This document shows positions 8,164 through 42,692 of a stretch of DNA of 43,055 nucleotides, in pieces. The notes beneath the pieces are model-generated. The model was not told the origin of the DNA and searched no databases. It saw nothing but the letters and a program-made list of their open reading frames with translations. The first letter of the stretch is position 1; each line of letters begins with the position of its first letter. The stretch comes from Eubacterium sp. (GTDB taxonomy: Bacteria > Bacillota > Clostridia > Lachnospirales > Lachnospiraceae): the NCBI GenBank assembly GCA_022791495.1, contig JAAVZE010000134.1, positions 1-43,055 of the forward strand. Reading direction: 5' to 3'. Both the position numbers and the translations under genes were made by a program.

Positions 8164-9648
8164 TTAAATAAAATTGAGCAACGAAGTCCCCAGTATTTTT
8201 GATGTCGCCTGGAGGGATGCCTGGTAGAGAAGATCTGCCTCTGTATAATTAACGTACGCATCCTCAAGATCCGCATCCTCATTCTCTGATTTTGCCTCAT
8301 CCGTTCCTGTCTTCAAAACCTCCAGTCCGCTCTGGGTCATCTTCAGTCTGGAGTATCTCGCACCGTGATCTGCCAAGGATACGTTCAGCTTATTCTTGGC
8401 ATCCTGGAATACCGTGATCGCATGGGAATAGGAGTTGGTCAGCACTGTATTCTGCAACGTAAGCTGTGTGCCGATCTGATCATAAAGCTCCTGCAGATTT
8501 GCCAGCGTTTCCTTGTCATTCGGATCGCAGTCATCAATCCGTTTTTTGACAGCAGCATAATTTTTCTCAATGATCTCCAGATCATTGATCACCTTATAAA
8601 TATCATCTACTACTCTGCCAATAGTTGTGTCAAAGGTGTCACAGGCAAGGGTATTTACTGTCAGTGTCTGGCTGAAATTAACCTGATAGTTGATCTTCTG
8701 CTCGGTTACATTATCATAGTTTTTCACAACACCAGTGGCATTATTCTCTGCCCTGCAGTTAAAATAGTGCTCCGGACGAATATCATTCCCGGTAAACTGA
8801 GTCTTGTTAAACTGCGCTGACAGGCCGGATCCTGCACGGATGGAATCATATATCGCATCCCCGAAAACCAGTTCCCCGGTCTCTGGTACAAAATACACCT
8901 CATTTTCCCCCGGATGATACTGTTCGTTATAAGTCTTATTATCCGGAATGCTCTTTGTAACTGCTGTCACAGTATGGCTGTCTCCGTTTACATCCTTATA
9001 GGTAATCGTAACATCTTCTTTATCACAGTTGCTATAGGATAAAGGAATGCGGTGGGTCTGTAAAAATTCTGACGCCTCATTAGCATAATCTGATGCATCT
9101 TTCGTATCATCATAACTTGGCTGACCATATACATAGGAATATTTTTCAATTTCATTAATCTCCAGGTTCTCCGTAATGGTATACGTCGTATCGCTCTGAT
9201 CTGCACCAAAGAGAAGAGGAACATCGGTACGATATCCGGTAAAGACATAGCGCCCCGCATAATCTCTGTTGGCATGCTCCTGATAAATGGCATCTGCATT
9301 CTGGCGGAGCTGTTTGGCGATAGTCTCCCTGTCGTCTGCGTTATTGGGATCGTTTGCCGCATGGGTCACGTATTCCAGCATGCCGTCCAGAATCTTATTC
9401 ACTTTATCAATCGGCTCTTCTGTGGCATCCATCCAGTTTTCCGCATCGTCACAATTGGAAAGATACTGTTCAATCTCAATCATTGTGGTACGGAACCGAA
9501 GTGCACGCACTGCGATCGTCGGATTATCAGACGGGTTCTGAATCTTTTTCTCTGATGCATACTGCTCAAAATATTTGTTGTATGCTGCCTTATTCTTTTG
9601 AATATGGAGCATTGCATTATTTCTCATCATGTTATTAGTAATCCGCAT
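8164..9648 (-). CDS. flgL: Hook-filament junction protein FlgL (HAP3)
   Basis: 494 residues. The N-terminus MRITNNMMRNNAMLHIQKNK and the segment KKIQNPSDNPTIAVRALRFR match FlgL, a flagellin homologue with D0/D1 coiled coils at both ends. The C-terminus DAYVNYTEADLLYQASLQAT followed by SKILGTSLLNFI is equally typical. Length exceeds the usual 300 because of an inserted central domain (residues about 150-330) rich in Tyr, Asp and Asn. It joins the FlgK ring to the filament. It comes after two flgK genes. Confidence 0.93.
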   Translation of the reverse strand: MRITNNMMRNNAMLHIQKNKAAYNKYFEQYASEKKIQNPSDNPTIAVRALRFRTTMIEIEQYLSNCDDAENWMDATEEPIDKVNKILDGMLEYVTHAANDPNNADDRETIAKQLRQNADAIYQEHANRDYAGRYVFTGYRTDVPLLFGADQSDTTYTITENLEINEIEKYSYVYGQPSYDDTKDASDYANEASEFLQTHRIPLSYSNCDKEDVTITYKDVNGDSHTVTAVTKSIPDNKTYNEQYHPGENEVYFVPETGELVFGDAIYDSIRAGSGLSAQFNKTQFTGNDIRPEHYFNCRAENNATGVVKNYDNVTEQKINYQVNFSQTLTVNTLACDTFDTTIGRVVDDIYKVINDLEIIEKNYAAVKKRIDDCDPNDKETLANLQELYDQIGTQLTLQNTVLTNSYSHAITVFQDAKNKLNVSLADHGARYSRLKMTQSGLEVLKTGTDEAKSENEDADLEDAYVNYTEADLLYQASLQATSKILGTSLLNFI

Positions 9649-30984: not shown

Positions 30985-31638
30985 TCATATAAATCCATGT
31001 TCCATAAGAAACGCATCCGTAATGTTTGATTCTACTCTTGTAGTGCTTTCTGCCGGTTTCATCAGCTTTTCAATATATTTTCCAATCACATCACACTCAA
31101 GATTTACGATGTCGCCCTTCTGCCGAAATCCCAGACTGGTCTCCCCCTGGGTGTGGGGAATGATGGACACGGAAAAATCTCCCTCCGTCACCCTGGCCAC
31201 CGTCAAACTGATACCGTCTATAGCAATGGACCCCTTTTCCACAACATACCTCAGCAGCTGGGGCTCCGCCTCCACTGTGTACCATACCGCGGTCTCATCC
31301 CGGCGGATATCCCGGATCTTTCCGGTGCCGTCGATATGCCCTGCCACAATATGTCCGCCAAAGCGTCCGTCTGCTGCCATCGCCCGCTCTAAGTTCACCG
31401 GACTGTTCTTTGACAGGCTGCCAAGAGAGCTTCGTTCCAGTGTCTCCGCCATGACATCTGCCGTATAGCCCTGTTCATGCAGGCTGGTCACGGTAAGGCA
31501 AACTCCATTGACGGCGATGCTGTCACCGGTCTTCGTCCCCTCCAGCACTTTCTGGCAGCGGATTCCCAGCACTGCCGACTGGGTTCCTTTTTTAATGGAA
31601 TCAATCCTTCCGATCTCTTCGATTATTCCGGTAAACAT
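30985..31638 (-). CDS. ribE: Riboflavin synthase, alpha subunit
   Basis: 217 residues from ATG at 31638 preceded by AAAGGAGG. Two tandem lumazine-binding barrels are visible: MFTGIIEEIGRIDSIKK with NGVCLTVTS in the first half, then GGHIVAGHIDGTGKI and DGISLTVARVTEGDFSVSII in the second. It dismutates two lumazines into riboflavin. The start lies inside the 3' end of ribD (16-base overlap). Confidence 0.96.
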   Translation of the reverse strand: MFTGIIEEIGRIDSIKKGTQSAVLGIRCQKVLEGTKTGDSIAVNGVCLTVTSLHEQGYTADVMAETLERSSLGSLSKNSPVNLERAMAADGRFGGHIVAGHIDGTGKIRDIRRDETAVWYTVEAEPQLLRYVVEKGSIAIDGISLTVARVTEGDFSVSIIPHTQGETSLGFRQKGDIVNLECDVIGKYIEKLMKPAESTTRVESNITDAFLMEHGFI

Positions 31639-32738
31639 ATATCCGCCTCCTTTTCCGGCATTTTTCCCGTGATACAAATATCTTCCCCAAAGGGGATGAT
31701 TTCTATTTCATTTAGAACTGCCGCCTCCCTCATTGTGGCAAAACCAGTCCCCTCCACCGGGGATTTTGCCTCTTTTCCCCCAATTAGTTTTGGGGCGACA
31801 TAGGCGTACACCCGGTTTACAAGTCCGGTCAGAAGAAGGGAACCATGTAACGTTCCGCCTCCCTCCACCAGAACACTGTCAATCTGCCTTTCTCCCAGCT
31901 TGTGAAATAACAGATTCAGGTCAACCTGGTCTCCATCTCCACATCTGATTAGTTCTACTCCCGCAGACAAAAGTTTCTCTCTCTTTTCCTTCTTTCCATC
32001 CCCGGCATAGGACACAATCGTGGGGATCTCTGACGCGGAGGCCACAATCTGGCTTTCCTCTGGAATTCTGAGATGGGTATCACAGATGATACGGACCGGA
32101 TCTGTTCCTTTCGGGATGCGGCAGTTCAGCATAGGATCATCAGCGAGAACCGTATCCACACCTGCCATGATGGCAGAATATTTATTTCGGAGCTCATGCA
32201 CATGCTTCCTGGCTGCTTCCCCTGTCACCCATTTGGAATCTCCAGTGAAGGCGGCAATCTTTCCGTCCAGTGTCATCGCATATTTCATCGCCACAAAAGG
32301 CATTCCGGTGCGGATAAAATGAAAAAATATCTCGTTCAGCTCCAGGCATTCTTTTTCCAGGATCCCAGTCTCCACCTGGACCCCCTTTTCTCTCAGCAGG
32401 CGGACACCATTGCCCGCCACTTTCGGATTGGGATCCATAGCCCCCAAAAACACCCTGCCGATCTTTTTTTCTATGATGATATCCGTACAAGGCGGAGTCT
32501 TTCCCTGATGGCAGCAGGGTTCCAATGTAACATACAGATCTGCCCCCTCCACGTCTTCCCTGCATTTTGTCAGAGCATTTCTCTCAGCATGGAATTCGCC
32601 GTATTTCTCATGACATCCCTCTGACACGATCCTTCCGTCTTTCACCACCACACATCCCACCATGGGATTGGGGGAGGTGTGTCCCATGGCAGTCTTCGCC
32701 AGCTCCAGGGCACGTTTCATATAGTCTTCGTGTGACAT
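31623..32738 (-). CDS. ribD: Bifunctional riboflavin deaminase/reductase RibD
   Basis: 371 residues from ATG at 32738, preceded by AAGGAGGG. The deaminase domain has the zinc motif with H50-A-E52 (FHAERNALTKC) and C75/C84 (LEPCCHQGKTPPC). The reductase domain starts at about 145 with FVAMKYAMTLDGKIAAFTGD and ends with DSVLVEGGGTLHGSLLLTGL. It performs the second and third steps of riboflavin synthesis. It is the first gene after the FMN riboswitch. Confidence 0.97.
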   Translation of the reverse strand: MSHEDYMKRALELAKTAMGHTSPNPMVGCVVVKDGRIVSEGCHEKYGEFHAERNALTKCREDVEGADLYVTLEPCCHQGKTPPCTDIIIEKKIGRVFLGAMDPNPKVAGNGVRLLREKGVQVETGILEKECLELNEIFFHFIRTGMPFVAMKYAMTLDGKIAAFTGDSKWVTGEAARKHVHELRNKYSAIMAGVDTVLADDPMLNCRIPKGTDPVRIICDTHLRIPEESQIVASASEIPTIVSYAGDGKKEKREKLLSAGVELIRCGDGDQVDLNLLFHKLGERQIDSVLVEGGGTLHGSLLLTGLVNRVYAYVAPKLIGGKEAKSPVEGTGFATMREAAVLNEIEIIPFGEDICITGKMPEKEADICLPE

Positions 32739-32769
32739 AAGGATCCCTCCTTCCGCGCGCAGCATATTC

Positions 32770-32807
32770 AAAAAAGCCCTGAATATAATACAATTATATT
32801 CAGGGCT
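32770..32807 (-). terminator. Riboswitch-controlled intrinsic terminator
   Basis: A 15-bp perfect stem, AGCCCTGAATATAAT (32775-32789) with its complement at 32793-32807 and a three-base loop, followed leftwards by TTTTTT. It sits between the FMN aptamer and ribD, so ligand binding most likely favours it and stops transcription. Confidence 0.85.
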
Positions 32808-32842
32808 CGCCAAAATCTTATTTCTCTAAAATACCGAACCAT

Positions 32843-32964
32843 CTTCTTCCATCCAGACTATACTGTCGGCTTTGGAATTTCACCAAATCAGCGGCATCGG
32901 CAACATGTGCCGAACCGGTCGCGGGCTGTAACCGCCGGTGAGGAATTGCACCTCGCCCTGAAGA
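32843..32964 (-). ncRNA. FMN riboswitch (RFN element)
   Basis: On the minus strand the conserved landmarks appear in order: CTTCAGGGCGAGGTG, AATTCCTCACCGGCGGTTA, CAGCCCGCGA, TGATTTGGTGAAATTCC, AAAGCCGACAGTATAGTC and TGGATGGAAGAAG. These are the core of the RFN aptamer that binds FMN and shuts off riboflavin synthesis. All main helices are intact. It stands between a strong promoter and a long terminator hairpin, the standard layout for transcriptional control. Confidence 0.97.
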
Positions 32965-33004
32965 TTGTTTAAGCTCAACGGCACCGTCGAGCTACCAGAA
33001 CTTT

Positions 33005-33033
33005 ATTATATCATGGTGATTCCATTCTGTCAA
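33005..33033 (-). promoter_or_regulatory. Sigma-A promoter of the riboflavin operon
   Basis: Minus strand TTGACA (33028-33033), 17 bases, TATAAT (33005-33010): both hexamers perfect. It lies 41 bases ahead of the FMN aptamer. Confidence 0.88.
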
Positions 33034-33119
33034 ATAATAACGGACAGGCGTTTGTGTCAAGTACTCGTTGGCACTTTTTATTCTTCTTTATAAATTCTTG
33101 ATGATAGCAAGAGTTACTC

Positions 33120-33140
33120 GAACACGGCGTGTTCTTTTTT
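33120..33140 (+). terminator. Orphan rightward terminator
   Basis: GAACAC (33120-33125) and GTGTTC (33129-33134) with a three-base loop, then TTTTTT. It is a good small terminator in the plus direction, but no plus-strand gene lies before it. It probably remains from a gene lost at the junction where A+T-rich accessory DNA begins. The rest of 33034-33218 shows no gene. Confidence 0.45.
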
Positions 33141-33218
33141 GTAAAAGATAAAGGCATAATATACCACCCATGTCATTTTTACCTCTAAAAACTGCATTAA
33201 CCAACAAACAAAATCTGC

Positions 33219-33983
33219 CTAAATCTCTGAAATAAAATTCAAATCGCAAAATACTCCCCAATGGTCACTTGCCGTAAGTTTTGTGTGAAAGTCTATCTTT
33301 TTCCCAAAAGTATCACAACAGACTAAACAAGGAAAATCTTTCGGATAAGGATTTCTAATGAAAATGCAATCACATCTTTGATTGACTTCTATCGTGTTTT
33401 TTCCATTCCAACGGGGATTAGTTCGGAAATCAAGCGTTATATCCGGCTCTATACCTTTTATATCCCCGTAGCTTTCCGCTAAATCATACCAACATGGGTT
33501 TGATTCTTCGTTATACAGAGATTGTTGTCCCAGCAAATAACGATGAACACTTGAATTTGGCGAACAATTTAAATCCCCTGCGATAAATGCAAAATCACTG
33601 TCTATCTTATCCAAATATTTTACAATATGAATAATTTCTTTTTCCCTTTTTAACACACTATCCCAACTCAAATGGACATTTGCCAATGATATTAAATATC
33701 CAGCAACCTCAATAACTGTGATAATAGCATTTGAAATGTATTTACTTTGCTTTATTGGATATCTACTTAATACTGTCAATCCCTCTTCTTCGTTTGTATG
33801 ATTGAAAAAGCAGGAAAATTGGTAATCACATTTCTCTGCAATGTATTCATAATAATTGTAATTCATGACTTCCTGCAAACAGATTATATCAGCATTTATT
33901 GTTTGAATCTGTGTTAAAATAGCCTGTTTCCGTTCAGATAATACTTTATCCGTATTCCAGATATTATAGGTTGCAATTCGCAT
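33219..33983 (-). CDS. Endonuclease/exonuclease/phosphatase family protein
   Basis: 254 residues, one EEP domain. Catalytic features are TYNIWN at 5-10, E38 in CLQEV, the D137/N139 pair in AGDLNCSPNS, D205 in RCDCIF and the terminal D240-H241 in SDHWGVF. It needs a divalent metal and cleaves phosphodiesters; the substrate (nucleic acid, lipid or small molecule) cannot be told. It overlaps the deaminase gene by 20 bases. Its A+T-rich codon use differs from the rib genes to the left, suggesting transfer. Confidence 0.85.
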   Translation of the reverse strand: MRIATYNIWNTDKVLSERKQAILTQIQTINADIICLQEVMNYNYYEYIAEKCDYQFSCFFNHTNEEEGLTVLSRYPIKQSKYISNAIITVIEVAGYLISLANVHLSWDSVLKREKEIIHIVKYLDKIDSDFAFIAGDLNCSPNSSVHRYLLGQQSLYNEESNPCWYDLAESYGDIKGIEPDITLDFRTNPRWNGKNTIEVNQRCDCIFIRNPYPKDFPCLVCCDTFGKKIDFHTKLTASDHWGVFCDLNFISEI

Positions 33984-34380
33984 TCATCTGTCCTTTCCCC
34001 CACCAATCAGGCATGAGTTGATTCAACGTAATTGTTTTTTTCTTTTTGTAATCCACCAATATTTCCATTAACGGACTTTCTCTGTCTAACTGCATAAGAT
34101 ATTCCCTGCAAGCACCACAAGGTGAACCTACGCTTCCATCTTCCATAACACATACAAGTTTTACAATTTTACTCTCTCCATTGGTAATCATATTAGCAAT
34201 AGCATTTCGCTCCGCACACATTCCCAGTGTACATGATGTATCAATACATACTCCCGTATAAATATTTCCTTTATCAGTTAAAATTGCAGCCGCAACACCA
34301 CCCGCTTCAATAAATGGTGATAAAACTCGTGGATTCAACTTTTCCGCAGCTTTTTTATATAACTCATCCCAAATATCCAT
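33964..34380 (-). CDS. Cytidine deaminase-like protein
   Basis: 138 residues. The zinc site is complete: C55-A-E57 in MCAERNAIANM and C88/C91 in SPCGACREYL. Length fits cytidine and blasticidin-S-type deaminases. The N-terminus with NPRVLSPFIEAGGVAAAILT is more like the latter, broader group. Possible roles are pyrimidine salvage or resistance to a nucleoside antibiotic. It is the first gene of a two-gene set with the EEP-family protein. Confidence 0.85.
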   Translation of the reverse strand: MDIWDELYKKAAEKLNPRVLSPFIEAGGVAAAILTDKGNIYTGVCIDTSCTLGMCAERNAIANMITNGESKIVKLVCVMEDGSVGSPCGACREYLMQLDRESPLMEILVDYKKKKTITLNQLMPDWWGKGQMNANCNL

Positions 34381-35355: not shown

Positions 35356-36651
35356 TCAATCACTGCCCACTACCTTATCAAGAAGTTTAGCAGAATTACG
35401 CTTTGCCTCCCTGTCGGCATGGGCATATACATTCATGGTAATGCTGATGTCAGAGTGCCCTAAGAGTTCCTGCACATCTTTCGGCTGTGCCCCATTAGCA
35501 AGCAGATTTGACGTATAGGTGTGCCTTAGTGTATGGAAATGGAAGTTTTCAAAGCCCGGAATCCGTTCTTTTATCGTCCGGCAGACAATTCCTATTGTGC
35601 TTGGGGATTCGTATGCCCCATCCGGTCTTAGGCATACAAGGGAAATTTCTGTGTAATCTTCGGGTATCTCTGCTGTTCCGTCTAAATGATACAGTTCATA
35701 GTGTACCCTGTTTTTTTCTGTCACTTCCCTATAATAATTCAGATGGTAAAGCTGTCCGCACTGCAAACGCTGCCGGTGCTGTTCCTTTTTAGCCTTTTTC
35801 AAAATCCTAGTCAGCGTATCGCCAAAGTCTACGGTTCTCACCTTTTTCCGCTTTGTCGGTCCAATCTCCATTTTGTGCCTTGCACCATTGTAACGGACAC
35901 TCCTTCGTACCGTAAGGCACTGTTCGTCAAGGTTGATGTCCTGCCATGCCAGCCCGCAGACCTCACCAAGCCTCAGACCTGTGAAATAGGCTATCTGCAT
36001 TGGCAGGACAGCAGGCTTATTCTTTTGTTCCAGATAAGCCATCAGTTCCTGATACTGCCGGAATGTCAGTGGCGTGGTTTTAACATCTTCGTTTTCCCCG
36101 TCTGTGAATAAGTCAGCATTTTCAGATTTTTTCCTTAACACCACATACTGCATTGGATTAAACGTAATATACTTTTTGGGAAATACCGCAAACCGGAATG
36201 CCTGCTGTAATACAGCCGAAAAAGAATGAATATAATCTTTGCTGTACCCTTTTGAGGTAAATCCCCCGACTGTGCCTCCGAATGTAAGTATGTCCAAAAA
36301 CTGCTGTAAATGCTCGGATGTGACTGATTTCAGTTTACGGTCACTGATGGGGTGCTGTTTGATTCTGCCTATAGTCAGCAGATAATTTTCAACAGTTCCG
36401 TTACTCAATGTCCCCGTTTTCAGTTCTTCGTCTGCCCAGACGTCAAGAAGTTTTCCCAAAGTGATATTCTCCGTCTTTGCCACAAACTTCTTTTCCTCGT
36501 AATCCTCCATTGCCTTGCGGAGCATTTTCTCCGTTTCGCTTTTGCTCTCTGTGCCTGCATACTCCTTCTGCACCAGATTCCCGCTTTCGTTCTCCACATA
36601 AAAGCGGTAGTACCATTTCTTTCCTTTTTTCCTTACAGAACCTTTTGCCAT
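35356..36651 (-). CDS. int: Tyrosine recombinase (Tn916-type integrase)
   Basis: 431 residues with three parts. An N-terminal arm-binding domain (1-60) has AKGSVRKKGKKWYYRFYVEN. A SAM-like core-binding domain spans about 63-175. The catalytic domain is from about 190, with R227 in TGLRLGE, H373 and R376 in HTLRH, H399 in LLGHS and the nucleophile Y409 in NVYAH. All active residues are present. It integrates and, with the excisionase at 37773, excises the element. AGGAAAGGAG precedes ATG at 36651. A long insertion at about 285-345 is usual for this group. Confidence 0.95.
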   Translation of the reverse strand: MAKGSVRKKGKKWYYRFYVENESGNLVQKEYAGTESKSETEKMLRKAMEDYEEKKFVAKTENITLGKLLDVWADEELKTGTLSNGTVENYLLTIGRIKQHPISDRKLKSVTSEHLQQFLDILTFGGTVGGFTSKGYSKDYIHSFSAVLQQAFRFAVFPKKYITFNPMQYVVLRKKSENADLFTDGENEDVKTTPLTFRQYQELMAYLEQKNKPAVLPMQIAYFTGLRLGEVCGLAWQDINLDEQCLTVRRSVRYNGARHKMEIGPTKRKKVRTVDFGDTLTRILKKAKKEQHRQRLQCGQLYHLNYYREVTEKNRVHYELYHLDGTAEIPEDYTEISLVCLRPDGAYESPSTIGIVCRTIKERIPGFENFHFHTLRHTYTSNLLANGAQPKDVQELLGHSDISITMNVYAHADREAKRNSAKLLDKVVGSD

Positions 36652-36876
36652 AATAAAAATCTCCTTTCCTGACCGGCAATCGGAACTGATAAGATATGCG
36701 TGTTAGCATTGAGCCATGCACATGAAAGATGGATTTGGCTGTTGTGTGCTTGCACACAGAAAGACAAATCTTATCTTTCTTGTATTTGGCGATAGCCACG
36801 ACCGAGTGACGCCAGTCACGAGGTACTTGGTTCAAATGCCGTTGCGTGTAGGCATATCAAAACTCCGGTTGCCCCG
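36652..36876 (-). other. 225-base gap with an extended stem-loop
   Basis: Nested inverted repeats at 36724-36779: GAAAGAT/ATCTTTC outside, GATTTG/CAAATC in the middle and TGTGTGC/GCACACA with a two-base loop inside. No U-tract. It lies between the XRE gene and int and may control int expression or bind Int or Xis. No gene is supported in the rest of the gap. Confidence 0.45.
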
Positions 36877-37491
36877 TTACATGGAATGGTCACTCAGCAG
36901 ATTTTTCAGCCTTGTTTTCGCAAGTTCCGGCTCTTTGGCATAAACCCTTACAATGTCACTGATTTCACTCGTGCTGTTGATGAAACGCATAATCTCCCGC
37001 AGGAACATGACATTATTAAACTCCTGCTCGGATTCAAAGCCCATGACTTTTGACATGGCCTCATTGAAATCCCCACTTTTTCCATACTCCTTCAACGCAT
37101 GGGAAAGGGACTGGTTGAACATGCGGTACTCATAAAGGAACAAAAGCAGCAAATCTTTGGAAAAATCGCTTTCCCCCTCTGCCATGTCAAGTGGGAAATC
37201 GCCCATAATCCGGCTCATGGCATATTCAATTTTAAAATCCCTGCTGTCCGCCATATCTGCACCCATATCCTCTGTTTCGCCCCGCAGCCATGCCGCAGAA
37301 ACGTGAAGTGCCTCCGCCAGTCCCTCGACAATGAGTTTCTTGGTGTTGTCAATGCTCCCATTCTCGTATCTCTGGATGGTGGTCTTGTTTACGTCCATCT
37401 GCCCTGCTACATACTGGAGGGGAAGTTTCAGCGACTTGCGGCGTTGTTTCGCCCGTTCACCGATAGTCCTGCGAAGTTCTTTTTTCTCCAT
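36877..37491 (-). CDS. XRE family repressor of the mobile element
   Basis: 204 residues from ATG at 37491, with GGGAGG upstream; a longer frame to 37755 crosses the promoter region and is rejected. A helix-turn-helix lies at about residues 8-65 (LRRTIGERAKQRRKSLKLPL, then QYVAGQMDVNKTTIQRYENG). The C-terminal 130 residues are helical and unrecognised. It resembles ICE/phage repressors that hold int and xis silent. Two perfect palindromes in the divergent promoter region are likely its operators. Confidence 0.85.
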   Translation of the reverse strand: MEKKELRRTIGERAKQRRKSLKLPLQYVAGQMDVNKTTIQRYENGSIDNTKKLIVEGLAEALHVSAAWLRGETEDMGADMADSRDFKIEYAMSRIMGDFPLDMAEGESDFSKDLLLLFLYEYRMFNQSLSHALKEYGKSGDFNEAMSKVMGFESEQEFNNVMFLREIMRFINSTSEISDIVRVYAKEPELAKTRLKNLLSDHSM

Positions 37492-37568: not shown

Positions 37569-37682
37569 ATAATAACACATAAAAACATATATTGCAATAT
37601 GCAAAATAGAAACAACCGCAAAAAGACTTGACAAATAAATCATGGCAGTATATCATGTATTTTATGGTGTTGCAAAATGCAA
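37569..37682. promoter_or_regulatory. Divergent XRE/xis control region with two identical-type operators
   Basis: Two perfect palindromes TTGCA-N3-TGCAA lie at 37592-37604 and 37670-37682. Leftward promoter for the repressor: TTGCAA (37592-37597), 17 bases, TATTAT (37569-37574), so the first operator contains the -35. Rightward promoter for xis: TTGACA (37628-37633), 17 bases, TATCAT (37651-37656), with the second operator just past the start site. The layout implies that the XRE protein represses both itself and excision. Confidence 0.75.
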
Positions 37683-37716
37683 TATCAAAAAAACAACAAG
37701 AAAGGGGGAAACGGAT

Positions 37717-37797
37717 ATGAACAGCAAAGCAAACAGAATAGAAACGGATTATCAAAAGAAATGGGGGATTTTATGGCAGAGGTTAAAATTGGAATGA
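37717..37797 (+). CDS. Possible 26-residue leader peptide overlapping xis
   Basis: ATG at 37717 follows AAAGGGGGAAA and opens a 26-codon frame rich in Lys and Trp (ending WGILWQRLKLE). It ends at TGA 37795-37797, which overlaps an in-frame ATG of the excisionase gene as ATGA. It could couple translation to the excisionase or be incidental. No known family. Confidence 0.35.
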   Translation: MNSKANRIETDYQKKWGILWQRLKLE

Positions 37798-37991
37798 CGA
37801 TAGAAGAAGCGTCCGAGTATACGGGCATCGGCAGGAACACCATGCGGAAACTGGTGGAATGGGAGAAAATCCCGGTGCTGCGGATTGGACGGAAGGCAAT
37901 CATACGCAGGGATGTGCTGGAGAGGTTTATGGCAGCCAATGAGGGAAAAGACCTGCGGAACCGTCCGGACGTGAAAACTGTCCGGACATAG
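37773..37991 (+). CDS. xis: Excisionase / helix-turn-helix DNA-binding protein
   Basis: 72 residues from ATG at 37773, with GGGGGA just upstream; in-frame starts further up lack ribosome sites. The MerR-like winged helix has TIEEASEYTGIGRNTMRKLV, then KIPVLRIGRKAIIRRDVLER, the Tn916 Xis-type pattern in size and spelling. It bends DNA near the ends to favour excision by Int. It is transcribed away from the repressor. Confidence 0.85.
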   Translation: MAEVKIGMTIEEASEYTGIGRNTMRKLVEWEKIPVLRIGRKAIIRRDVLERFMAANEGKDLRNRPDVKTVRT

Positions 37992-38016
37992 TAAGAGGCA
38001 GCCATAACGGCTGCCC

Positions 38017-38094
38017 CCATTGGCAATCAGACCGAAGTCCTGATATACCTACACGCAAGATAAGTGTATCACAGACTCCGGTCTTTATCAATGG
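38017..38094. other. Nested stem-loop downstream of xis
   Basis: Matching arms occur in nested order: CCATT/AATGG at the outside (38018-38022 and 38090-38094), AGACCG/CGGTCT (38029-38034 and 38079-38084), AGTC/GACT, and TACAC-type pairs inside. A separate short hairpin, GGCAGCC/GGCTGCC, precedes it at 37997-38015. It may end the xis transcript or be a DNA structure used in transfer or replication. Confidence 0.5.
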
Positions 38095-38130
38095 AGAACA
38101 GATTTTCGGCTGGGAATAACAGTGGGTGTA

Positions 38131-38275
38131 TGTAGATTTGATATAGGAACGGTGTAGTTTCCGTCAATTATGATGTAGTTTTGGTGTAGGAATGATGTAG
38201 AAAGATACAGTTTTTTCTACACTGTTCCTACACCATTCCTACATCATTTTGTGAAAATCCTACACCAAAACTACA
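38131..38275. repeat. Mirror-symmetric array of TGTAG boxes on an 11-bp grid
   Basis: Five TGTAG boxes on the plus strand start at 38131, 38153, 38174, 38185 and 38196. Five inverted boxes (CTACA) start at 38217, 38228, 38239, 38260 and 38271. Spacings are 11 or 21-22 bp, one or two helical turns. The array has a common axis at about 38208.5, and four of the pairs are exactly symmetric about it. A degenerate TATAG at 38142 partners the last box. The consensus unit is RTGTAG plus four or five bases. This looks like a cooperative binding platform for a protein dimer or multimer. Confidence 0.8.
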
Positions 38276-38324
38276 CCATAAAGAAAATATCCGAGCGAAA
38301 CGGTGCTGTCACTTTTAACAGTTT

Positions 38325-38464
38325 TGCCCGCACATTTGCTTGCACTTTTTCTTTTGATGCCTGCACTTTTGGGGATTTTGCCCGCACCACTGTCTGCACC
38401 GCTTTTTCTACGGAAAATGAAGTGCCTGCACCTATGCCAGCACTTTTTGCGGTTTTGCCTGCAC
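38325..38464 (+). repeat. Second phased array: eight TGCCYGCAC-like boxes
   Basis: Boxes close to TGCCTGCAC start at 38325, 38337, 38358, 38379, 38391, 38423, 38435 and 38456, all on the same strand. Intervals are 12, 21, 21, 12, 32, 12 and 21 bp, roughly one, two or three helical turns. The 32-bp step breaks the reading frame, so the repeats are not a repeated peptide. Many are followed by TTTT. Iteron-like; no replication protein gene is visible next to it. Confidence 0.7.
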
Positions 38465-38583
38465 TATGCTGTTGCTTTCTCTTTATCTGTATATTCCGCT
38501 ATGGAAAAATACAGGCATTAGGAAAAGGCTTGGCTTGCAGATAAAAAGGCAGGAAGTACAGGCAACGTGCAGGAGAAACAAAG

Positions 38584-38651
38584 CCCCCGCATTTTTGGCC
38601 TGCCAAAAATGCTAGGGGGTTATCATTATCGGCAGAGCCGAAATGATAACC
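38584..38651. other. Twin hairpin, candidate origin of transfer
   Basis: First hairpin: CCCCC plus GCATTTTTGG (38584-38598), a four-base loop, CCAAAAATGC then TA and GGGGG (to 38619). Second: GGTTATCATT (38618-38627) with AATGATAACC (38642-38651), enclosing TCGGC/GCCGA. The two share GG at 38618-38619, so they may be mutually exclusive at the base. It lies 125 bases ahead of the relaxase start, where MobV-type oriT sequences are usually found. Confidence 0.6.
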
Positions 38652-38775
38652 GCAGCCCGCCACGTTCCCATCAGCCGAAAGGGAAACCGAAAACTTGAAA
38701 TGATTGGTAAGGAAACCAGCCGGAACAGGAATAACGGATAAGAAAAGATTCCTCTCCGGCAGGAAGGAGGATGGG

Positions 38776-40380
38776 ATGGACGACGTATCATACAGCGCCC
38801 ACATCAGCAATGGGAAAAGTGCCATCAACAGCAAAGCGAAACTGTCCGGCGTGGCAAAACACAATCTGCGGAAATACCGTTCCAAAGAATATGACAGGGA
38901 AAACATTGCCTTGCTCTTTGGCAGTACAAATCTTCTGCGGGATGTGAAAAAAGTCTATAAGGACACATTTACAGAGGCACTACAGCAGTATAACCAAAAA
39001 CAGACAAGGGCTGACAGGCGGATTGACGATTATTTTGAACACGTCTCTGAAAAGAATCAGGATATGGCAGTGGAGATTATTTTCCAGTGCGGGGATAAGG
39101 ATTTTTGGGAATATATCTTTTCTGATACAGATAAGAAAAAAGGAAATAAAGAGAATATCTGCAAGGTGTACAATGCCCTGCTGGAACAGTTGCAAAAGGA
39201 AATGCCGGATTTTAAGGTGGCAAATGCGGTGGTTCACTTTGATGAAGCAAGCCCGCATATGCACGTCGTAGGCGTTCCGATAGGGCGAGGATTCAAGCGG
39301 GGGCTGGAAACAAAGGTGTCAAAACGCTCCGTTTTCACTCCCAAAACACTGGAAACTGTCTTGCAGGACAGTTTACGGGAAACCGCCAATATACAGATGC
39401 TTGTTTACTATGACGTGTTTGTAAAGAGCAAGCAGAAAGGCAAAAACCATGACCTGACGGTGGCGGAGTACAAGGTGCAGCAGGAAACAGAGCGTTTAGA
39501 AAAAATAGAAGCTGGTATTGATGAAAAAGAGGATTTGCTTTATGACGCATTTACCCGCCTTACGCATACAGAGAAAAAAGCTGCGGAGGCGGAAAACCGC
39601 TTATCCGGCACGCAAAGGGAGATTGCCGGGGCAGAGGATGCGTTGTCACAGATACGGGCGGAAGGCAGGGAAACGAAACAAAAGCTGATGGCAGAACAGG
39701 AAGAAATCAAGCAGGAAAACCAGTCCTTAAAAACAGACACGTTTATCCTTCGCTCTAAAAAAGAAATTCTTTTGAGTGATGTCAGCAAAGCAGAGAATGA
39801 GAAAAAACAAATACAAATGAAAAAAGAGGGGCTTTTAGAGGATATCAGTGTGTTAGACAGGGAGTTTGAAAAACGGCTGGATTTTATCAATGTGCTGGAT
39901 AAGCTCAAAGCAATCCTTTACAAACTGCTTTCCATGATTCCGCTGGTGAGGGAATTTGCAAGGCTGGTGGAGGAAAAGCGGAATATAAAAGCAGCTACCC
40001 CGTATGGCTATACCCCTCTCGGCAGGCTGTTGAAAGAGTACCGCACCCCTCTCCCACGATATGAAAGGTTTGTTATCTTCCCGGAGATTGCCTCGTGGCA
40101 GACGTCAAAAGGGGAGGTTGTTCCGGTGTATGAGGATTTCAACGGACGGGGAACGGATTACCGGCCGGCGGGATTTCGGAATGTGCAGACGGAACAGAAT
40201 ATAAGGGTTATAGATATTAAGGACGAGATTATACCGGAGAATCGGATATGCACACTGGAACAGGCAGAGGTGTATGTGAAGGCGGTGGAGAGTTTTATGG
40301 AGGAAATGAAACCGGAGGAAACAAGATATGACCGTTCTGTTTATCGGATAGATAAAGAGATAGATGAGTGGAGCAGGTAA
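38776..40380 (+). CDS. mobV: MobV-family relaxase (plasmid recombination/mobilization protein)
   Basis: 534 residues from ATG at 38776, which has AGGAGG upstream; an in-frame ATG 24 codons earlier lacks one. The metal-binding relaxase motif is HFDEASPHMH at 154-163. Upstream is a MobV N-terminal domain (ISNGKSAINSKAKLSGVAKH). A long coiled coil covers about 235-380, and a helical C-terminal domain follows. It would nick the element's oriT and lead a strand into a recipient, using a conjugation channel supplied in trans. No type IV secretion genes are in the window, so the element is mobilizable, not self-transmissible, as far as seen. Confidence 0.92.
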   Translation: MDDVSYSAHISNGKSAINSKAKLSGVAKHNLRKYRSKEYDRENIALLFGSTNLLRDVKKVYKDTFTEALQQYNQKQTRADRRIDDYFEHVSEKNQDMAVEIIFQCGDKDFWEYIFSDTDKKKGNKENICKVYNALLEQLQKEMPDFKVANAVVHFDEASPHMHVVGVPIGRGFKRGLETKVSKRSVFTPKTLETVLQDSLRETANIQMLVYYDVFVKSKQKGKNHDLTVAEYKVQQETERLEKIEAGIDEKEDLLYDAFTRLTHTEKKAAEAENRLSGTQREIAGAEDALSQIRAEGRETKQKLMAEQEEIKQENQSLKTDTFILRSKKEILLSDVSKAENEKKQIQMKKEGLLEDISVLDREFEKRLDFINVLDKLKAILYKLLSMIPLVREFARLVEEKRNIKAATPYGYTPLGRLLKEYRTPLPRYERFVIFPEIASWQTSKGEVVPVYEDFNGRGTDYRPAGFRNVQTEQNIRVIDIKDEIIPENRICTLEQAEVYVKAVESFMEEMKPEETRYDRSVYRIDKEIDEWSR

Positions 40381-40509: not shown

Positions 40510-40602
40510 ATAAAAAGATAAGGAATGCTTTACCGTCAAGAACCTCAGTATATAACCATGGTTAAATTAGGAACTTATTCAATGAAAGGGGAGGTAGATA
40601 TT

Positions 40603-40983
40603 TTGCAACAGGTTTCAGATTATGAATTAGAACTGTTAAAAATTATATGGGCAGGTAATGGCAATCAGGCAATGTATGCAGAAATCGTGGAGGCTTTAGA
40701 AAAAAAAGGACTGTCATGGACAAAAAATACGATTATTACACTGCTCTCGAGATTGGTGAGTAAAGGTTTCTTAAGCGTGCAAAAAATTGGTCGCAGGAAT
40801 CAATACATAGCAATCATATCAGAAGAACGGTACAAAGAGGTGCAGACGCAAAGCCTGCTTGACAGGGTTTATGAGGGAGATGCTAAAGGACTTGTTTGTA
40901 CCTTGATTCAGGGAGCATTGCTTTCACCAGAAGAATATGAAGAATTAAAAATGTATTGGAAGGAGGGAAAAGATAGAAAATGA
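40603..40983 (+). CDS. BlaI/MecI family repressor
   Basis: 126 residues from TTG at 40603, preceded by GGGGAGG with a 7-base spacing. In-frame ATGs upstream would add residues foreign to the family. A winged helix covers residues 1-75 (QQVSDYELELLKIIWAGNGN, then ALEKKGLSWTKNTIITLLSR and GFLSVQKIGRRNQYIAII). The C-terminal dimerisation helices follow. BlaI proteins repress until cleaved or inactivated by a BlaR1-type protease, which is encoded next with an ATGA overlap. Confidence 0.88.
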   Translation: MQQVSDYELELLKIIWAGNGNQAMYAEIVEALEKKGLSWTKNTIITLLSRLVSKGFLSVQKIGRRNQYIAIISEERYKEVQTQSLLDRVYEGDAKGLVCTLIQGALLSPEEYEELKMYWKEGKDRK

Positions 40984-42692
40984 ACGAAGTTTTAGCCGTC
41001 ATTTTATCAATGTCACTGTCCGGTGGAATTGTGATTATCATGCTGTATCTTGTGTTACTGTTGTTTGGAAAGAAATTTTGCAGACAATGGCAGTACTATA
41101 TTTGGATGATAGCCATTATCCGGCTTTTACTTCCTTTTGCTCCACAACAAAATTTGATGAATGAGCTGTTCCAATCTGCAAAGCCGCCAATTAGTGGTAT
41201 AGACAATTCTTCCTTGGAAGGATTGCAGAATGAACAAACGCCAACGGAAGACTTCAAAACAAATGTTATCCAGTCGGAGAATACAGAAGATGAAAAAGGT
41301 AATATACAATCATCGGAAATCAATTATGGAATAACAGATGAAACTGTGGATGAAGTAACTAACAAAGAGCTGACAGGAAAACCGTATGTTTTATCAGATA
41401 TTGTCTGTCAATATTTATGGCTTATCTGGTTGTTGCCTGCAATTATTCTATTTGCAAGGAAAATATTAACATACGAAAAAAAATTGCAATATATTCGTGC
41501 GGGGAGTAAAGAGGTACAAGATATTGTTTTGCTGGAAGAATTTGATAAATTGCTGGAGAAAAATCATGTCAAAAGAAGGATGGCGCTTTCTGTAAACAGC
41601 ATGATAAGATCTCCTATTATGATTGGCTTATTCAATCCTTGTATTATCCTTTCCACAACCCAAATGACGGTTTTGGAGTTTCGGCATACTATTTCACATG
41701 AGCTGGTACATTATAGAAGGAGAGATATCCTGTATAAATGGCTGATACAGATTGTTGTCTGTATACATTGGTTTAATCCTCTTTTGTACATGATGGAACG
41801 GAGTATAAACAGGGCTTGTGAGCTTTCTTGTGATGAGGCGGTAATATGGAACTTAGATAAACAGGAGCGATATGCCTATGGAGATACTTTATTGCGGGCG
41901 GCGGGAAGAAACGTAAAATACAAATTGCCTGTATCGCCTATTGCATTTAGTGATAGCAAAAAAAATTTAAAAGAAAGGTTAGGTGCAATTATGAATTTTA
42001 AAAAATTATCGAAAGTAACTTACATAACAATGTTTTCTTTAACAATAATATTGTTTGTCTGCTCATCTTGTATGGGGGTATATGCAGCAACAAAACGGAA
42101 TGTTGCTGTAACAGACAAATCTAAAGCAAAAACAACATCTTCCAATTCTGTGCAGACACCTCATTCCGTTGTGTATAAAAATGGAGAATATTTTATCCTT
42201 TTTGATAATGCAGGGGAAAAAGATATACCCGGTTCAACTGGACCAGACTACGGAGTGACTTTTAGTGCCGTGTGGCCGGATGCCTATGTTAGTTTTAACA
42301 GTTATTACGTCAACAAAAATCTCAGTAGTAAAATCAAAAAAGAAGGTAAATATATGCAAAACAAGGGATGGCTTACAAAAAAAGAAGCCAATGCAATTAT
42401 TGATGTGGCGCTTAAGGTACAGCAGGGCGATACGAACGGCTTTAAAACGGACAAACAAGAAAAAGAATATACCAAGTGGAATATTACGATAAAAAATGGT
42501 GTTTATTATTATAAAAACAAGCGCATCCGTATTCTTATGGACACAAGAAAAGACCGTTCCTTTAAAAATTTCAGTTATGATAAGAAAGGAAAAGTAGATG
42601 TAAAGGTTATAAGAAACAGTGATAATAAAATTACCAAGGTCAAATATCTGTCTAAGAAAAAAGCACAAGAAATTTTAGAAGATTTAAAATAA
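40980..42692 (+). CDS. M56 family (BlaR1-like) membrane metalloprotease with a non-penicillin-binding sensor
   Basis: 570 residues. Membrane segments at about 5-29, 38-54, 139-160 and 345-368. The zinc protease motif is HELVH at 240-244 with a downstream ligand in CELSCDEAV (E281). The C-terminal 200 residues, presumably outside the cell, are Lys/Tyr/Asn-rich and lack the SxxK, SxN and KTG motifs of the BlaR1 penicillin-binding domain. So the signal is probably not a beta-lactam bound in the usual way. It should sense an unknown ligand and trigger loss of the BlaI-like repressor. No beta-lactamase or other target gene adjoins the pair. Confidence 0.88.
   Translation: MNEVLAVILSMSLSGGIVIIMLYLVLLLFGKKFCRQWQYYIWMIAIIRLLLPFAPQQNLMNELFQSAKPPISGIDNSSLEGLQNEQTPTEDFKTNVIQSENTEDEKGNIQSSEINYGITDETVDEVTNKELTGKPYVLSDIVCQYLWLIWLLPAIILFARKILTYEKKLQYIRAGSKEVQDIVLLEEFDKLLEKNHVKRRMALSVNSMIRSPIMIGLFNPCIILSTTQMTVLEFRHTISHELVHYRRRDILYKWLIQIVVCIHWFNPLLYMMERSINRACELSCDEAVIWNLDKQERYAYGDTLLRAAGRNVKYKLPVSPIAFSDSKKNLKERLGAIMNFKKLSKVTYITMFSLTIILFVCSSCMGVYAATKRNVAVTDKSKAKTTSSNSVQTPHSVVYKNGEYFILFDNAGEKDIPGSTGPDYGVTFSAVWPDAYVSFNSYYVNKNLSSKIKKEGKYMQNKGWLTKKEANAIIDVALKVQQGDTNGFKTDKQEKEYTKWNITIKNGVYYYKNKRIRILMDTRKDRSFKNFSYDKKGKVDVKVIRNSDNKITKVKYLSKKKAQEILEDLK

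Follow-up and report, generated by a model that had tools for sequence, protein, structure and literature searches.

A phased TGTAG array beside the putative oriT of a Lachnospiraceae mobilizable element matches the array of an ICE and may be a parC-like site

The window, i.e., the whole stretch of 43,055 nucleotides from Eubacterium sp. (Lachnospiraceae) that was analysed, carries a mobilizable element near its right end. An integrative and mobilizable element (IME) comprises an integrase, an excisionase, a relaxase and an oriT, without a conjugation apparatus. In the window, int, xis and mob were recognized by profile and the oriT by conservation; the contig stops at 43055. The features of the element are the following:

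35356–36651, minus strand: tyrosine integrase of the element (Pfam Phage_integrase, 2.4e-27)
36842–36869, plus strand: left copy of a 28-bp inverted repeat that lies on either side of the XRE-xis module (24/28 identical to 38031–38058, inverted)
36877–37491, minus strand: XRE-type repressor (HTH_3, 6.3e-8)
37773–37991, plus strand: excisionase of the Tn916-Xis/excise family (Pfam HTH_17 and Tn916-Xis; TIGR01764, 1e-11)
38031–38058, minus strand: right copy of the 28-bp inverted repeat, overlapping a segment conserved in relatives, where it stands before the arrays
38131–38275, no strand assigned: TGTAG array of ten boxes (five plus, five minus) with a degenerate TATAG at 38142, defined by box positions, phasing and a k-mer match to ICE G270
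38330–38464, plus strand: second phased array of eight GCAC boxes, GCCTGCAC being common in relatives, defined by positions, phasing and conservation in L021
38583–38651, plus strand: putative oriT, with conserved inverted repeats and a TAGGGGGTTATCAT core upstream of mob (conservation upstream of MobV relatives)
38776–40380, plus strand: MobV/Mob_Pre relaxase (Mob_Pre, 1.2e-13; NCBIfam MobV, 5.3e-13, below its cut-off)
40525–42692, plus strand: cargo, a BlaI-type repressor and a BlaR1-type M56 peptidase (Pfam); at this place L024 and L025 have other genes, a phosphate-transport and regulator set by ORF reading

The XRE–xis intergenic region has six TGCAA words, counted on either strand, in a span of ~145 bp (about 37592–37736); they may be operator sites for the XRE repressor. 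At another place of this genome (G000:C146, about 31250–33998), two fragments (L018, L019) resemble the C-terminal part of the window relaxase (92% and 85%).

The TGTAG array begins 140 bp downstream of xis and is located between xis and the putative oriT. Its plus-strand boxes start at 38131, 38153, 38174, 38185 and 38196, and its minus-strand boxes occupy 38217–38221, 38228–38232, 38239–38243, 38260–38264 and 38271–38275. A first-pass annotation of this DNA had described ten boxes, five per orientation, with four exactly symmetric pairs about 38208.5, and we confirmed this arrangement; the fifth pair is centred on 38203. Successive steps are 22, 21, 11, 11, 21, 11, 11, 21 and 11 bp. The spacing of 11 or 21–22 bp on one helical face that had been claimed thus stands, with the correction that the lattice has a period of ~10.75 bp (R 0.99) rather than 11. 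One position of this lattice without a TGTAG is taken by the degenerate TATAG at 38142. As had also been claimed, the order exceeds chance, since there are ten TGTAG in 145 bp, whereas 2,000 dinucleotide-shuffled versions of the region gave four at most, and ATATA is the only other pentamer of the whole window that reaches ten in such a span. The window contains 55 TGTAG in total against 52.35 expected by chance; it is the clustering, not the number, that is unusual.

We pooled the steps of five mobilizable-element TGTAG arrays, the window GCAC array and the array of an ICE in the family genome G270, with array limits set by us and G339 kept out for one isolated box 75 bp away. All 58 of 58 steps were 11, 12, 20, 21, 22 or 32 bp, with best periods of 10.65–10.90 bp (R 0.92–0.99). 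The mirror arrangement is exact in the window copy only: at most two box pairs share an axis in L020, L023, L025, L027 and G339, and 14 of 14 boxes of the G270 array have a single orientation. The first-pass annotation had reasoned that a functional array should keep both spacing and symmetry axis in homologous elements; spacing and phasing (11, 12, 20–22 and 32 bp) are kept, the axis is not. A single-stranded DNA hairpin was considered as a shared principle and rejected. The hairpin is strong in the window (z −7.6), L023 (−5.7), L025 (−5.8) and L221 (−7.4); because it is weak in the GCAC array (−1.8) and absent in ICE G270 (+0.5), it is not the common denominator of these arrays.

The GCAC array, which the first-pass annotation had missed, lies just downstream, with all eight boxes in one orientation, steps of 12, 21, 21, 12, 32, 12 and 21 bp, and a period of 10.90 bp (R = 0.96). 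Among relatives it is kept or lost independently, being retained in L021, which has no TGTAG array.

Twenty-four relaxase relatives (MobV loci) were collected from named genomes, of which 13 keep the upstream anchor segment; the array counts refer to these 13. By reading, the TGTAG array is present in ten (L020, L023–L028, L031, L034 and L038) and absent from L021, L022 and L030. The GCAC array, likewise by reading, is present in eight (L021, L023–L028 and L034), reduced to a remnant in L020 and L038, and absent from L022, L030 and L031. L022 and L030, without both arrays, retain the XRE-xis segment, and in L031 the array runs straight into mob. The counted relatives are not independent because several are near-identical copies (L023, L024, L028, L031, L034, L038); L211 and L212, the same places as L028 and L026, were counted once. 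Box number varies among relatives while the phase stays. Given this variable presence, each array is an optional cassette; both lie between xis and the putative oriT, and the MobV mobilizable element that carries them varies in its cargo. The plasmid collection gave no match to 37950–38800, and the pattern GCCTGCACNNNTGCCTGCAC matched none of 200 genomes, missing the window's own genome because the window copy is degenerate.

In a search of 397 family genomes, a three-box TGTAG pattern was found in seven, whereas the reversed control was found in none. In G339 (L177), the array stands, by reading, in an int-XRE-xis setting with a MobA_MobL relaxase, which indicates that the array is not bound to one relaxase type. 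In this locus, at about 8950–9400, TATAG (GATATAG) boxes come after the TGTAG array, as if box specificity were shifting. In G270, the array lies behind a DUF3991/toprim primase and before NikA/MobC, the MOBP relaxase and the coupling protein of an ICE. A search with the primase gave 59 matches, of which 50 were scanned together with G270 (51 loci), the nine left out all being weaker than 1e-34; an array was called at the 3′ side of the primase when at most 2 of 200 shuffles reached it. Arrays were present in all 17 loci at E ≤ 1e-100 (G270 included), between the primase gene and oriT, and in one of four loci between 1e-100 and 1e-60 (L294, with repeats beyond an oriT-like motif); of 30 weaker loci, 3 had an array. 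The 17 ICE arrays contain 14 different box words, as assigned by eye. Among six further ICE primase matches besides G270, judged by eye only, L328–L331 and L333 have an array and L332 does not.

We compared 21 mobilizable-element regions (L007 was left out) with 23 ICE regions. The window matched ICE G270 with z = 16.7 (8-mers, 490-bp region before oriT; 0/300 shuffles), and its TGTAG array alone with a 7-mer z of 15.6. L020, L023, L025 and L027 matched the same ICE with z of 11.0–15.9 (0/300 shuffles), and for all five elements G270 was the only strong match among the 23. In another mobilizable element, G070, the oriT-side array matched ICE G182 only (z = 15.7). The next best element–ICE pairs reach z 4.3 (L009 with ICE L226), for which no match is claimed, and the GCAC array found no good match among the ICE arrays (best z 4.6). 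In terms of 8-mer sharing, the window array reaches 0.30 with G270, compared with at most 0.13 with 41 phage TGTAG arrays. The correspondence does not extend to the oriT, the window having a Mob_Pre relaxase with a TAGGGGGTTATCAT core and the ICE a MOBP relaxase with a TTTTAGGG core. That the row of boxes in the window matches the private row of one ICE suggests that the element borrows a DNA-handling, probably DNA-sorting, protein of that ICE. The earlier view that the mobile element has an ordered, non-coding and probably protein-binding array, whose reader is likely encoded outside the visible sequence, is supported.

Candidate readers were sought among proteins clustered from 18 ICE regions (L176, L310–L326), which were chosen with the arrays already known. 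A parM-like actin gene is present in 17 of 20 ICEs with an upstream stretch; the exceptions are G047 and G110:C28, where the stretch ends at the contig end, and G300:C15, where it may be too short. The three ParM-like proteins scanned all matched ALP_N above its cut-off. The next gene encodes a small, highly divergent protein whose N-terminus is ParR-like; from sequence and position we read it as a putative ribbon-helix-helix protein. The partners scanned gave no meaningful family match. A paper on chromosomal ParMs reports that ParR lacks a key motif (PMC12270681). The ICE array lies about 8 to 21 kb from parMR. Of 16 ICEs, 15 share no more words between the 450 bp before parM and their own array than mismatched pairs do; the exception, G164 (23 against a mismatched maximum of 17), has a possible parC upstream of parM. 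Neither ParM nor ParR was found in the window, up to the contig end at 43055, or in L020–L043.

Two pairs of ICEs are informative about the reader. G164 and G345 have the same box, with identities of 76% for the primase, 75% for the relaxase, 85% for NikA, 72% for cluster 7, 86% for ParM, 86% for DUF5688 and 87% for cluster 6; their ParR proteins are 77% identical overall, and the first 22 residues, through the strand, are identical. In G176 and G268 the array has been replaced, one gap of the blastn alignment coinciding with it among other gaps, while NikA is 99%, the relaxase 96%, ParM 93% and the primase 91% identical. ParR is 68% identical in this pair, and 5 of 7 strand residues are changed (YHNVRIN to FRSYRLN). 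DUF5688 (72%) and cluster 7 (82%) drop as well, so that ParR cannot be told apart from them on this pair alone. Over 14 ICEs, the correlation between array and protein similarity was highest for ParR (rho 0.51–0.52, 0/1000 permutations), in agreement with both pairs, and nearly as high for the primase (0.44–0.47) and DUF5688 (0.43–0.45). Among the ICE proteins compared, the ParR-like protein thus tracks the box best.

Two other proteins were considered as readers and are not favoured. NikA/MobC is 99% identical in G176 and G268 despite the changed array, and its strand motif is common to ICEs with different boxes. The 182-aa protein behind oriT (cluster 7) reached a rho of 0.35–0.39; its cluster is the most divergent of the nine compared (mean 35% between boxes). 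This protein (L176:10596–11141 and relatives, 173–469 aa) is very divergent between ICEs, and the one member scanned had no Pfam or NCBIfam match.

The reading that we hold most probable, at somewhat below an even chance, is that the window's mobilizable element carries, as a cassette and without the helper's genes, a parC-like centromere array of ICE type, namely the TGTAG array. It draws on the element–ICE match, the phasing, the modularity of the arrays and the co-variation of the box with the ParR-like protein. The ParR of an ICE would bind the array of that ICE; the helper's ParR, together with ParM, would bind the window array in trans, and this would allow positioning or segregation of the excised element, or its delivery to the transfer site, along with the helper. 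The GCAC array may likewise be a cassette of this kind, serving a different type of helper.

Several observations speak against a parC-like array. A parC normally adjoins parM, and neither in the window element nor in the ICEs does the array stand next to parM or parR. Both arrays are dispensable in L022 and L030, and the GCAC array is without an ICE match. In addition, no co-resident helper array was seen, since none of 13 host genomes of relatives has a second TGTAG three-box array (strict pattern, draft genomes; that of L024 left out). Eight of the 13 hold one three-box match, seven being the mobilizable element's own and that of G460 belonging to a G339-like element. The window's own genome (83% complete) gave no match to the ICE primase, and across the order the primase query matched 0 of 166 genomes at E 1e-60.

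With primase genes in the neighbourhood of the arrays, replication iterons are the strongest rival. On this account, which we consider unlikely although it fares best among the rivals, the excised element would start its replication at the array, where a primase/helicase provided in trans by a helper ICE or a phage would open the DNA, in the manner of SaPI/SCC replicons. Viral contigs contain at least 120 stretches with the three-box TGTAG pattern. In 15 of 41 non-redundant viral arrays with at least six boxes, a gene ends beside the array (17 ORFs); ten of these ORFs were scanned (Pfam/PHROGs), and nine were primase/helicases of several families and one an amidase. Among the remaining seven, L097 has a Pox_D5 match, and L076 and L119 encode tyrosine integrases with zinc ribbons. 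Within 1 kb of viral arrays (39 proteins), DUF5906 was found seven times and D5_N and Prim-Pol three times each, compared with one D5_N and one Prim-Pol among 67 far proteins, where DUF5906 was not among the best 25 of 43 families; capsid, terminase, methylase and chaperonin genes also lie within 1 kb. It was this neighbourhood that at first suggested replication iterons. Moreover, the ICE arrays too stand directly behind a primase gene, and in SaPI/SCC the origin follows the Rep gene (PMC7581432).

Against iterons, no rep gene is seen in the window element, where the gene upstream of the array is xis, and its genome has just two AAA_25 matches (frames of 467 and 451 aa), both on other contigs. 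The phage arrays have looser spacing and extended boxes that differ from those of the window, and some adjoin integrases instead (L076, L119). In G176 and G268 the primase is still 91% identical though the array was replaced, and primase relatives weaker than 1e-60 are mostly without an array. An iteron origin with an unseen Rep is ranked as a rival because the closest arrays belong to ICEs, in which they track the ParR-like protein better than the primase, the relaxase or NikA. G070 has its own RepA array besides the ICE-type one, so that the extra array need not serve maintenance.

Two further observations concern such neighbourhoods. The TGTAG arrays of L076 and L119, next to tyrosine integrases with zinc-ribbon domains, are possibly integrase arm sites. 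Many RepA-type AAA_25 relatives (L251–L279) have, by reading, a short inverted GACGG- or GACA-type array right behind the RepA stop codon, which looks like a SaPI-style origin.

An improbable explanation is that the array is a relic or a passively recombined ICE segment without present function. The optional nature of the arrays would fit this, with L022 and L030 lacking both, the L031 array running directly into mob, and GCAC remnants in L020 and L038; however, the phase is kept while the box number changes across relatives, and two element–ICE matches exist, in different elements.

Even less probably, the array comprises relaxosome or coupling-factor sites, at which an accessory factor would link the element to the coupling protein of its helper by specificity-site mimicry. 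The arrays adjoin oriT in both ICEs and mobilizable elements, and staphylococcal SmpO sets oriT specificity, with mobilizable plasmids mimicking each subtype (PMC8136818). The near-identity of NikA/MobC in G176 and G268 despite the array change, the strand it shares among ICEs with different boxes, and the occurrence of the array with MOBV (window), MOBP (G270) and MobA_MobL (G339) relaxases argue against it. ParR as the docking factor would merge this explanation with the parC-like one. The first-pass annotation had proposed Xis or the XRE protein of the element as readers, which would make this a regulatory array. The array begins 140 bp downstream of xis, but this explanation is very improbable, as L022 and L030 keep the XRE-xis segment without arrays, the XRE-xis intergenic region is filled by a word of its own, TGCAA, and the oriT-side box of G070 follows a different ICE type.

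The parC-like reading can be set beside known systems. ParMRC systems (type II: R1 parC, the C. perfringens parC families and SrpMRC of SXT/R391) likewise have short repeats that differ between families; the pooled arrays, too, are short repeats at helical-turn spacing. The ParR of C. perfringens plasmids binds its cognate parC only, and R1 ParR uses 11-bp repeats (PMC9426499). A small, cognate DNA-binding partner encoded next to parM is a common feature (PMC9426499, PMC4489591), predicted here, and the ParMRC of SXT/R391 (PMC4489591) provides an ICE-borne precedent. Unlike in ParMRC, a long distance separates the array from parMR in the ICE, such an array is also present on a separate element without parMR, some arrangements are inverted or mirrored, and ParR binding is predicted only.

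SaPI and SCCmec iteron origins behind Rep helicase genes (PMC7581432) resemble the arrays of ICEs and phages as clusters of short boxes beside replication genes, whereas the window element has no visible rep gene and the box tracks ParR somewhat better than the primase. SmpO oriT mimicry (PMC8136818) likewise involves a passenger with a helper-specific recognition site and one mimic per helper subtype; in the window, however, oriT and relaxase are not the helper's (MOBV as opposed to MOBP), and the adjoining array alone matches. SGI1 with its IncC helper (PMC7433901, PMC7826253) is similarly an integrated mobilizable island dependent on a conjugative helper; it encodes a putative replication initiator (PMC5704250), none of which is seen in the window element. 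Related literature includes reviews of IMEs (PMC5704250) and of hitchers (PMC11389934). Among the titles listed in searches on IME iterons, Tn1549 oriT repeats, ICE and Lachnospiraceae repeats, and ICE ParMR, none appears to concern such arrays.

More generally, and as a tentative proposal that is less probable than the parC-like reading of this one array, mobilizable elements may pirate ICE partition or ParR-dependent positioning by centromere mimicry, with one or two helically phased ParR-box cassettes, each specific to a helper, beside their own oriT and with ICEs diversifying box and ParR N-terminus together. If true, centromere-like mimicry would be a further layer of helper exploitation beyond oriT mimicry, and helper–passenger pairs could be predicted from sequence alone. 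Such mimicry would also account for the marked variability of the arrays next to oriT in these ICEs, and the retention of excised mobilizable elements, which a 2017 review treats under the heading "an unexplored world" (PMC5704250), would become testable.
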